Shown here piece by piece: positions 1-28,207 of a stretch of DNA of 28,207 nt (position 1 is its first letter; every line of letters begins with the position of its first letter). The DNA lies in IMG/VR virus record IMGVR_UViG_3300035703_000352, positions 1 through 28,207 of that record; one strand, written 5' to 3'. This DNA is from a virus. Under the pieces are notes generated by a model. It did not search any database. It was not told the origin of the DNA and saw only the letters and a program-made list of their open reading frames with translations. A program made the translations under genes and the position numbers.

Positions 1-246
1 TGATCGGACGCGGTGACACGGCGATACTCGCCCGCGTTTGGCCCTGTATCAAACCGCACGACCCAGTTCACGTATCGGCCAGAAGTGGACAGGTTCAAAA
101 CGCCCGTTCCGCTGACATCGAATCGAGTTGTCGATACCGTTCCCTGAGCCGTGAACGGGACGCACTCGCTTTCGAGAGGCTGATAGAACTTGTTCACGTC
201 GGAAGGATCGCAAGCGTATTGCTCGATGTCCAGAACCCCGTCATAC
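1..246. repeat. Left copy of terminal overlap (circular assembly)
   Basis: Bases 3-246 match 27964-28207 at a constant offset of 27961. Within the match there is one substitution (C at 119, T at 28080); base 2 also differs but lies at the extreme edge. The overlap falls in the middle of a protein-coding gene, so it is best read as the closure overlap of a circular or circularly permuted genome of about 27,961 bp, not as a biological terminal repeat. Confidence 0.93.
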
Positions 247-20287: not shown

Positions 20288-20479
20288 TTAATTCGTACGG
20301 TTGACTTGGGTTGAAAGTGTCAGAGGCCCGAGTAAACGACGGCGAATTTCCTCAATCGGCTTTCGTTCTTTCGTCGGCCACTTACGACGGTCGGTCGTCA
20401 TCGGTTCGTACCCGAGCGGGATTCGGTTCGGATTCGCAGCCAGCACGTCGAGAGTTTCGGGGTTGATTACTTCAATCAT
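20288..20479 (-). CDS. Small hypothetical protein after DnaB
   Basis: A 63-residue protein with ATG at 20479, overlapping the DnaB stop as ATGA. A basic centre (TTDRRKWPTKERKPIEEIRR) suggests nucleic acid or protein binding. No family recognised. It probably works with the helicase, judging by coupling only. Confidence 0.58.
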   Translation of the reverse strand: MIEVINPETLDVLAANPNRIPLGYEPMTTDRRKWPTKERKPIEEIRRRLLGPLTLSTQVNRTN

Positions 20480-21726
20480 GGTTCTACTAGCTCCAGTCGG
20501 TCGTTTAGATAGCACGATGTCGGCATGAACCGCCGAGCATGGCGCATCTTTTCGCAAGTCACTTTGATCGGGGTGCGCCCGCTGAATCGGTGAACAAACG
20601 ATGGGTCTTCTTTCGCTGCTACCCGCATTTGCGCTTGGTTCATCATCTCCAGCACCACGGTACATTCGCTTCCCTCGTTCCAGTGCTTGCCGCCCTTGGT
20701 GACCAAACCGCGCTCGCCCTCGGTCGCTTGGCTTGCGTACCAAAGCACAATTCCGAGCCGGTTCGCCAGAAGGGTCAACTCGTTTTCAGCGTTGAGCGAC
20801 GCTTGATACTCATTCGCCCGTTCGTCGTACTGGATCCGCTGCACGTAGTCCAGAACGACGACTTTCACGCCCATGCGGTGACGTGCCCTTTCGATCAGCG
20901 CGATCAGGTTGCCGAGCCGGTTCCCACCGCGATACCGGTACGGAGCATGAAGGTAAATCTCGATCTCGTTCAACTCCTTTTCTGCTAGGTTCCAATCATC
21001 CAGCGGCTTTCCGTGGTCCGGTTTCCGGGTCCATCCGGTCATAGCTTGCATCGCTCGCCGCCGCATCGCTTTCTCGTCTAGGTCCATCAGTGACAGGTAC
21101 AGAACCGGGAAACCCTGTCGAGCCGCGTGTATGGCACGGTGGATGCAGAACGCCGACTTTCCGCCGCCACTGTTTGCCAGAATGACCGCGGTTCCGCCAA
21201 GTCCGATCCCGCCGCTTTCGTTGTCGATCAAGCTAAATCCCGTCGGAACGATGACACGCGGCTGTTCCGCCCCTTCGACTTCGCCTATCCGAACTGGCTG
21301 AGTCGCTTCCATCGCGCCGACAAGCTGGAACAACGTCGCGTCGTCTACCTCGTATTCGTCGTCGGTCGCCATCCGGTTTCCGATCTCAACGATTCGCCGC
21401 CGCCGCCAGAGCCGCTCGATAATCCCGAGATACGTCGCCCAGTTCGCAGGACTCGGAACGAACTCGGCAAGTTTCAGAACGTAGTCCATGCCGCCCGCAG
21501 CTTCAACGGACGCGCCGAGTTCCGCCCGCATGGATACGATGTCCGCTTCGCCGCCACGCTCAACGATGTCCGCGATCGCACGGTAGATGATCTGGTGAGC
21601 CGGACGCCAGAATATGCGTTCATGCGCCCTCGCGATGATGTGCCGAGCCGCTGAACGGCTAAGCATCATGGACCCCAGGACGCCCATCTCAGCGTCGATG
21701 TTTACGTTTGAGTTCTGTTCGTTCAT
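20476..21726 (-). CDS. Replicative DNA helicase, DnaB-like
   Basis: A 416-residue protein with the two-domain DnaB plan. Residues 8-115 form the helical N-terminal domain (EMGVLGSMMLS, EADIVSMRAEL). The RecA-like domain has Walker A ANSGGGKS (184-191, Lys190) and Walker B VVVLDYVQ (289-296, Asp293). A later TKGGKHWNEGSE loop (residues about 345-360) fits the DNA-contact and arginine-finger region. It would be a hexameric helicase loaded by the adjacent initiator protein. ATG at 21726 overlaps the initiator stop (ATGA). Confidence 0.92.
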   Translation of the reverse strand: MNEQNSNVNIDAEMGVLGSMMLSRSAARHIIARAHERIFWRPAHQIIYRAIADIVERGGEADIVSMRAELGASVEAAGGMDYVLKLAEFVPSPANWATYLGIIERLWRRRRIVEIGNRMATDDEYEVDDATLFQLVGAMEATQPVRIGEVEGAEQPRVIVPTGFSLIDNESGGIGLGGTAVILANSGGGKSAFCIHRAIHAARQGFPVLYLSLMDLDEKAMRRRAMQAMTGWTRKPDHGKPLDDWNLAEKELNEIEIYLHAPYRYRGGNRLGNLIALIERARHRMGVKVVVLDYVQRIQYDERANEYQASLNAENELTLLANRLGIVLWYASQATEGERGLVTKGGKHWNEGSECTVVLEMMNQAQMRVAAKEDPSFVHRFSGRTPIKVTCEKMRHARRFMPTSCYLNDRLELVEP

Positions 21727-22511
21727 CTCATGTTCCTCAACTTCTCTAAGTCTGACGCGGTGAATTGCGGGTCACCTGCCCATTCCTCGCCCCAGCATTT
21801 ACCGTCTAGGAAGGTGGTCATTTGCTTGATGAACGGACCGCCTATCATCTCGTTCGACTCGCAGAATTGCCGGTACTTCCGAACCCCTTCGATGATCTCT
21901 TCTGCCGCCGCCGATGTCTTGGCGAGCCGATAGAAGATCGTTTTCGCTTTCGCTTTCCCTAGGTCCCCTTTGCGCTTGGGATATAGGGTCTGGAACTGGT
22001 CCCAGAACGATGAGGGATCAAACCGTTTCGGGAGTTCGGGAGATTCCAAAACGAAACTATCACTATCACCGTCAGGTGATTTCTGATCTTCTCTATTCTC
22101 TTCTCCTCTTATCTCCTCTCCTCTCCTCTGTTGAACATCGTGTTCAACACTTGTTGAGTGTTTGTTCAACATATGTTCAACACGTGTTGACGCTGATACC
22201 TTGCCGGCCTTGGATCGCTTCTCTCGGACCTGCTCGACGTGCCCGACCTGCTCACAGATTGAAGGGCAGAATACGCCGGTTTCATCGGACTCAAAGAAGG
22301 GTAGAACTTCATGCGCTACGGAGTCCCACTCAGCCCGTTCATAGAGGATCGATGTTGGAACCGCGCCCGGCTTGATGCTGTTTCCGCCGCGCCGCCATAG
22401 CGCATCCCGAAGCCGGATGATGGCTAGGTGAGCTAACTTGCTGATTTCTTGAAGGTCGTCGGAGTTGTGAAGTTCCTCGACGTCGTGTTTACGCCACGTG
22501 TATTTACTCAT
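21723..22511 (-). CDS. Replication initiator / helicase loader-like protein
   Basis: A 262-residue protein; ATG at 22511 is used because AAGGA lies 6 bases upstream. The N-terminal region (residues 3-75) is charged and helical with HTH-like character, followed by REKRSKAGKVSAS, a motif of DUF1376-like phage initiators. Residues 107-150 are low-complexity (HSTSVEHDVQQRRGEE, then an acidic stretch) and encode the repeats of the putative origin. Residues 175-262 (FDPSSFWDQFQTLYPKRKGD ... MIGGPFIKQMTTFL) form a conserved C-terminal domain of phage replication proteins. Position directly before dnaB fits an O/P-like or DnaD-like loader. Confidence 0.75.
   Translation of the reverse strand: MSKYTWRKHDVEELHNSDDLQEISKLAHLAIIRLRDALWRRGGNSIKPGAVPTSILYERAEWDSVAHEVLPFFESDETGVFCPSICEQVGHVEQVREKRSKAGKVSASTRVEHMLNKHSTSVEHDVQQRRGEEIRGEENREDQKSPDGDSDSFVLESPELPKRFDPSSFWDQFQTLYPKRKGDLGKAKAKTIFYRLAKTSAAAEEIIEGVRKYRQFCESNEMIGGPFIKQMTTFLDGKCWGEEWAGDPQFTASDLEKLRNMR
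22065..22128. other. Polypurine/polypyrimidine tract and inverted repeat beside the iterons
   Basis: From 22082 to 22128 the plus strand is almost all C and T, in runs such as CTCCTCTCCTCTC. Purine on one strand and pyrimidine on the other favours unwinding or unusual DNA structure. At 22065-22080 ATCACC and GGTGAT pair around GTCA. I read these as the unwinding element and a terminal stem of the origin. Confidence 0.65.
22129..22190. other. Iteron cluster: putative replication origin within the initiator gene
   Basis: Four perfect copies of TGTTCAACA (or complement) lie at 22129-22137, 22141-22149, 22163-22171 and 22174-22182. The first two form an inverted pair with a 3-base spacer. Partial copies occur at 22152-22157 and 22185-22190, the last forming the palindrome TCAACACGTGTTGA (22177-22190). 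The stretch is followed (22082-22128) by a nearly pure pyrimidine tract on the plus strand and by ATCACC-gtca-GGTGAT at 22065-22080, the same order of parts as lambda ori inside gene O. Confidence 0.75.
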
Positions 22512-22590: not shown

Positions 22591-22607
22591 ATCAATCCGC
22601 CGTTCGG

Positions 22608-27760: not shown

Positions 27761-28207
27761 GGTACTGGGATTAGGATTTGGTTGATTTGGCCGTCGTTGT
27801 TGATTCCGCGAGCGATTGCGTCGTGACCCTGCAAGGTCAAGTGAACGCCGTCAGACGTGGATGTTCCGATGCCGGTTCGGACAGGAATCAGTACGCCGGT
27901 ATCACCAGCGACCACTGCGCTACCAAAAGCATCGGTAAAGATTCGATGCGCTCCGCCCGATTCATCGGACGCGGTGACACGGCGATACTCGCCCGCGTTT
28001 GGCCCTGTATCAAACCGCACGACCCAGTTCACGTATCGGCCAGAAGTGGACAGGTTCAAAACGCCCGTTCCGCTGACATTGAATCGAGTTGTCGATACCG
28101 TTCCCTGAGCCGTGAACGGGACGCACTCGCTTTCGAGAGGCTGATAGAACTTGTTCACGTCGGAAGGATCGCAAGCGTATTGCTCGATGTCCAGAACCCC
28201 GTCATAC
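27757..28207 (-). CDS. SGNH/GDSL-family hydrolase (C-terminal part of the gene at 1-1463)
   Basis: This is the same reading frame seen at the right end of the contig; 27962-28207 repeat the beginning of the window. The new part ends with block V, DGVH, with Asp525 and His528 completing the Ser-Asp-His set of an SGNH hydrolase, then a short tail and TGA at 27757. Blocks III and V are about 190 residues apart, with a beta-rich stretch (about residues 435-515) between them, longer than in a minimal SGNH domain. A reader that starts at the ATG at 28158 would call only a 133-residue fragment lacking the nucleophile. The stop overlaps the next start as ATGA. Confidence 0.87.
   Translation of the reverse strand, partial: YDGVLDIEQYACDPSDVNKFYQPLESECVPFTAQGTVSTTRFNVSGTGVLNLSTSGRYVNWVVRFDTGPNAGEYRRVTASDESGGAHRIFTDAFGSAVVAGDTGVLIPVRTGIGTSTSDGVHLTLQGHDAIARGINNDGQINQILIPVP
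27962..28207. repeat. Right copy of terminal overlap
   Basis: Same sequence as the first 246 bases. The T at 28080 in place of C at 119 changes codon 449 of the SGNH hydrolase gene from GAT (Asp) to AAT (Asn). This suggests two closely related genomes in the sample or a sequencing error. Confidence 0.93.

Follow-up and report, generated by a model that had tools for sequence, protein, structure and literature searches.

The repeat array and adjoining polypurine tract in the phage DNA analysed here (a stretch of 28,207 nucleotides, hereafter the window) very probably form the replication origin of the phage, lying within the linker-coding part of the phage's initiator gene. By analogy, the layout is best read as that of an origin type working like lambda ori or the origins of RepA_N plasmids, without homology to lambda O. 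The larger finding, drawn from sequence comparison, is what appears to be a recurring design of iterons with an 11-bp pitch, in which the type of repeat and a short protein motif are associated.

The initiator gene was assigned to positions 21723-22511 of the minus strand. The open reading frame encodes 262 amino acids and begins with an ATG at 22511, which also starts the counterpart in the close relative L002; an upstream TTG start at 22595 is open as well. The product was initiator-like in comparison with the PHROG collection, the best match being phrog_270, replication initiation protein (2.4e-13), besides phrog_9327 (2.9e-12). No Pfam model matched it at E-values up to 1, including PF07120, PF14297, and RepA_N. 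The initiator gene overlaps at its end with the start of a DnaB-like helicase gene (20476-21726, minus strand; PF00772 at 9e-20, PF03796 at 3e-9, phrog_19 at 6e-48); used as a search seed, this helicase retrieved no relatives. The PHROG and Pfam matches agree with an earlier note on this DNA, which had located the origin inside the initiator coding region and next to dnaB. The two ends of the record (window positions 1-246 and 27963-28207) overlapped almost exactly, with at least one mismatch. The genome is therefore very likely circularly closed or permuted, and is probably complete at about 28 kb and circularly permuted.

Two domains were delimited within the initiator. The N-terminal domain (22191-22511, minus strand) is predicted by AlphaFold2 and Foldseek to be of the winged-helix type with a long C-terminal helix. 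The residues KRSKAGKVSAS precede the repeat array, and the AGKVSA motif therein (residues 102-107; 22191-22208, minus strand) is proposed as the element of iteron specificity. The C-terminal domain (21777-22034, minus strand) aligned to phrog_270 and to proteins of four phages, and presumably recruits a helicase or primosome.

The array consists of six 9-bp units with start-to-start spacings of 11, 11, 11, 11, and 12 bp, four being exact and two partial copies of TGTTSAACA (S = C or G). Read along the coding (minus) strand, its order is GCGTCAACA-cg-TGTTGAACA-ta-TGTTGAACA-aa-CACTCAACA-ag-TGTTGAACA-cga-TGTTCAACA. The partial iterons GCGTCAACA and CACTCAACA lie at 22185-22193 and 22152-22160, the exact iterons TGTTGAACA at 22174-22182, 22163-22171, and 22141-22149, where the plus strand reads TGTTCAACA, and the minus-strand iteron TGTTCAACA at 22129-22137. 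Shuffles of the whole window gave an expectation of 0.11 exact sites against the 4 found. When the encoded protein was kept fixed, four sites were obtained in 2 of 20,000 synonymous codon permutations within the gene, and in none of 200,000 sequences with codons redrawn from the usage of the phage. As the motif had been picked after being seen, the motif-blind figure matters: the most frequent 9-mer reached four copies in 1 of 5,000 synonymous permutations. The four perfect and two partial sites of the earlier note were thus recovered by exact search and withstood controls at fixed protein, and its proposal that the DNA is constrained beyond the peptide was supported by the synonymous controls. 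The helical pitch of 11 bp, which the earlier note does not mention, is the more telling feature of the array; in the window alone, the excess of identity at lag 11 was modest (z 2.1).

The array is followed by a polypurine tract on the coding strand (22087-22129, minus strand), a putative unwinding element. On the plus strand it forms a 43-nt pyrimidine run interrupted by 2 purines. No other run of this kind in the genome is as long, the next having 28. Nearest-neighbour energies placed 22077-22124 fifth among the least stable non-overlapping 48-bp stretches of the genome, although the tract is of the GA type and only about 50% A+T. The presence of a polypyrimidine tract, as noted before, was confirmed; its length of 47 bases was reached only by allowing 4 purines. 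An inverted repeat with 6-bp arms, ATCACC-GTCA-GGTGAT, was found beyond the tract as described (22065-22080). Inspection of L002 revealed no counterpart, and the repeat was therefore given no weight and is probably incidental.

The comparison drew on about 200 related viruses. Pairs of TGTTSAACA sites separated by 2 or 3 bases were present in at least 119 stretches of viral contigs, and most 11-bp pairs in long reading frames lay in genes for proteins with an AGKxSA-type motif, many of them DUF1376 or Lin1244_N proteins. Since this set had been chosen by its DNA, relatives were also gathered by protein: DUF1376 N-terminal domains from viral contigs and genomes, two sets of Lin1244_N domains, and named phages. 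Many pattern hits with a 12-bp spacing were rejected as origins, being VQQP-type protein repeats. Pairs of TGTTSAACA sites at 11-bp pitch also occurred in L012, L027, L038, and L103, within the gene of a protein unlike an initiator that we take to resemble a Mu I-like protease or scaffold; possibly these represent an origin in another gene. Arrays of 3-5 TGTTSAACA sites in L029, L058, and L090 fell within short open reading frames, close to the end of a contig or on the opposite strand.

Lag analysis was performed with 85 non-redundant genes, of which 83 had been collected by protein similarity without reference to repeats, the others being those of the window and L002. Linker identity at lag 11 was 0.475 versus 0.367 under synonymous permutation (z 27.5), and lags 22 and 33 were raised as well; a C-terminal control stretch of the same 85 genes gave no lag signal. 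Exact GTTSAAC sites were spaced by multiples of 11 in 91 of 94 intervals, and exact GCAWTGC sites in 34 of 37. Lags 7, 14, and 21 were also raised, matching AACCAWN repeats 3' of the iterons. In the linkers of L125-L204, these 7-bp repeats stand on the coding strand downstream of the iterons (lag-7 z 12.8) and may serve as a single-strand binding element.

The iteron classes were found by inspection. Reading of the DUF1376 linkers yielded three combinations of protein motif and repeat, namely AGKxSA with GTTSAAC, xxRW with GCAWTGC, and GGRP with GG/CC-type palindromes, and these were extended by the named phages. The rule was formed mainly on DUF1376 proteins and then held in the Lin1244_N sets. 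At least two GTT palindromes were present in 49 of 52 AGKxSA genes and 0 of 18 xxRW genes among DUF1376 proteins, and in 12 of 13 versus 0 of 78 among Lin1244_N proteins; these 13 AGKxSA genes include two seeds, L044 and L033, that had been selected beforehand for their DNA pattern. The reverse was seen for at least one GCA palindrome, with xxRW 15/18 and AGKxSA 1/52 in DUF1376, and 54/78 and 1/13, respectively, in Lin1244_N. Because the counts ignore phylogeny beyond the removal of close copies, Fisher values calculated from them overstate independence. The first count comprised 157 genes, including the first Lin1244_N set, and the motif expressions were adjusted before the final count of DUF1376 and both Lin1244_N sets. 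Three Lin1244_N genes with a GGIASA motif (L286, L287, and L291), counted as AGKxSA in the first count, had no GTT palindromes and are exceptions to the loose form of the motif rule. An alignment of six diverse Lin1244 sequences yielded no searchable pattern. Lin1244_N proteins of Vibrio and Pantoea phages (L238, L239, and L240) lacked the basic motif; their loci carried CATGA/GTCATG-type repeats followed by purine-rich tracts resembling that of the window.

Scanned in the opposite direction, from DNA to protein, 80 of 98 non-redundant places with GCAATGC pairs directly followed an xxRW motif. A finer hint came from the residue three positions before R: GCA accompanied A in 61 of 82 genes, GTA accompanied I or V in 4 of 4, and ACA accompanied M in 4 of 8. 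The sequences thus suggest that a few residues at the end of the DNA-binding domain go with the type of repeat. The earlier expectation that the repeats vary together with the N-terminal domain needs correction in that the co-variation is better ascribed to the short motif at the domain end than to the whole domain because the iteron type crosses Pfam families. The chances are about even, in our estimation, that many tailed phages with DUF1376, Lin1244_N, or window-type initiators share one kind of origin, with 7-bp pseudo-palindromes every 11 bp within the gene. The end stretch of the DNA-binding domain would then select the repeat residue by residue (AGKxSA for GTTSAAC, A-x-x-R-W for GCAWTGC, possibly I/V-x-x-R-W for GTA-N-TAC and M-x-x-R-W for ACA-N-TGT). 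The helix bearing the motif may resemble the basic region of bZIP proteins, and GTTSAAC may likewise resemble the AP-1 site.

The AlphaFold2 model of the window N-terminal domain was of moderate confidence (mean pLDDT 74.5). DUF1376 or Lin1244 proteins made up most of its top Foldseek hits among viral proteins (best E 5e-3, probability 1.00), but the alignment from which the model was made contained such proteins. In the model of a DUF1376 representative, a single long helix bearing the motif comes after the winged helix (mean pLDDT 88.9). Solved structures included no relative by sequence, and Foldseek against the PDB returned weak winged-helix matches only (best E 0.056). The window protein matches neither DUF1376 (PF07120) nor Lin1244_N (PF14297), and its probable place in this group rests on the motif, the iterons, PHROG similarity, and, tentatively, the predicted fold. 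It shares with these phage proteins the layout, the 11-bp pitch, and the AGKxSA-class iteron; DUF1376 loci typically carry AACCAWN repeats, whereas the window has a GA-rich tract. The Rac prophage of Escherichia coli K-12 encodes YdaU, with AGKAS and degenerate GTTCAAA/GTTGAAG sites. An active origin, oriJ, has been reported for Rac (PMC3945230).

L002 was the sole close relative found. Its initiator is 78% identical to that of the window in the N-terminal half (141 aligned columns), and the iteron array and purine tract are retained, so that the repeats proved conserved in a close relative as well as in distant ones. The C-terminal domain differs from that of the window by its PHROG matches, and a DnaB-like protein follows. 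Conversely, the phages DC1, ST846-OXA48phi9.2, Catfish, and SaltyDalty encode proteins similar to the C-terminal part of the window protein with different N-terminal parts, and their linkers, on reading, contained other repeats and T-poor tracts. A tblastn search of the named phages with the window N-terminal domain gave no match. A shared N-terminal half and iterons with a swapped C-terminal domain are what a single module of these two elements would produce; the sequences fit such a module exchanged separately from the C-terminal domain. On plasmid pPR9 the N-terminal domain and origin were exchanged as a unit (PMC5703833), which resembles the relation of the window to L002.

The term lambda-like, used previously for this origin, was appropriate for the layout only. 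In both systems the known or proposed origin lies midway along the initiator gene, the iterons adjoin a readily melting tract whose purines are confined largely to one strand, and a gene for a helicase-recruiting function is next to them (PMC7466680, PMC5043065). Homology to lambda O was not detected by BLASTP (E=0.35), and iteron length and pitch disagree: lambda iterons are 18 bp long (about 18-19) at a pitch of 20-24, versus 9 bp at a pitch of 11 in the window. In lambda, binding of O to the iterons is reported to open a neighbouring 40-bp A+T-rich tract with nearly all purines on one strand (PMC5043065); that tract is A-rich (A 0.62), in contrast to the GA tract of the window. With the RepA_N protein Rep of pSK41 the window initiator shares an N-terminal domain of winged-helix type (predicted for the window), boxes within the gene, and a C-terminal domain that recruits the primosome in Rep and presumably does so here. 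In pSK41, the N-terminal domain of Rep binds the boxes within rep, whose origin-encoded linker can be dispensed with (PMC5703833). RepA_N plasmids belong to Gram-positive bacteria, however, and the window protein has no RepA_N Pfam match. For phage P1, an origin (oriL) has been postulated within the initiator gene repL, and replication is inhibited when an A/T-rich stretch is recoded synonymously; oriL is apparently not an array of 11-bp iterons (PMC9948254).

By this analogy, the N-terminal domain with its basic AGKVSA helix end would bind the 9-bp pseudo-palindromic iterons. As the iterons are one helical turn (11 bp) apart, the initiators, one per turn, would stack on the same side of the double helix, straining or wrapping it. 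This strain could open the adjacent strand-asymmetric tract, in which the coding strand holds the purines; the C-terminal domain would then bring the DnaB-like helicase encoded by the neighbouring gene onto the opened strand. What the analysis established for the window is the sequence side: the array and its pitch, the constraint on the DNA beyond the peptide, the recurrence in relatives, the association of iteron and motif, the low stability of the tract, and the separate exchange of the C-terminal domain. Binding, unwinding, helicase loading, and origin activity are inferred.

Repetition in the DNA might simply be a by-product of selection for a repetitive peptide (the VEQ/LN/CST linker), and in many relatives the linker peptide does have a period of 11 residues, which equals three 11-bp units. 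This explanation is extremely unlikely. The same 9-mer is encoded in three frames as different peptides, all three reading frames being used by GTTSAAC sites; in one of these frames a central G would give a stop codon, and there C was present in 45 of 45 sites. Codon choice within the sites departs from that in the rest of the genes (the valine of linker V[EQ]Q was GTT in 56 of 56 cases versus 357 of 866 elsewhere), and much of the 11-bp signal was lost on synonymous permutation. A different reading treats the array as an operator through which the initiator or another phage protein regulates transcription of the replication operon. Binding sites within coding regions can block transcription, autoregulation is common among initiators, and an array alone does not prove origin function. 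Nevertheless, an operator would more often be expected upstream of the gene, while an array that is helically phased, sits in the interdomain linker, and adjoins an asymmetric tract of low stability suits an origin better. The layout also recurs in initiator genes carrying different iterons, and the operator is considered very unlikely.

The true origin could also lie elsewhere. One candidate is a divergent, A+T-rich region at 24.24 kb, which includes the least stable stretch of the genome (24236-24283). The turn in GC skew anticipated at the array was absent at that position; skew turned near 24.2 kb, where gene orientation flips, and its cumulative minimum was near 24.5-25 kb. One half of the refuting outcome named in the earlier note was thus observed. 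Skew tracks gene orientation on both sides, however, and because it follows gene direction it does not discriminate as an origin test. The region resembles a promoter region between divergent operons, and no iteron array was seen there in a non-systematic look. A location of the origin in this region is very unlikely, and the array and tract within the initiator gene are retained as the candidate origin.

Origins embedded in initiator genes were already known; the group with 11-bp iterons and the link between residues and repeats appear to be new. No description of either was found in the open-access literature searched, and none of the open-access papers naming DUF1376 was concerned with an origin according to titles and abstract openings. 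As mostly titles and abstract openings of open-access papers were covered, an earlier description is possible. If the interpretation is right, it would provide a function for two protein families of unknown function, and origins would become predictable by eye in many phage genomes. It would also offer a simple system in which to study the evolution of origin specificity under domain exchange.
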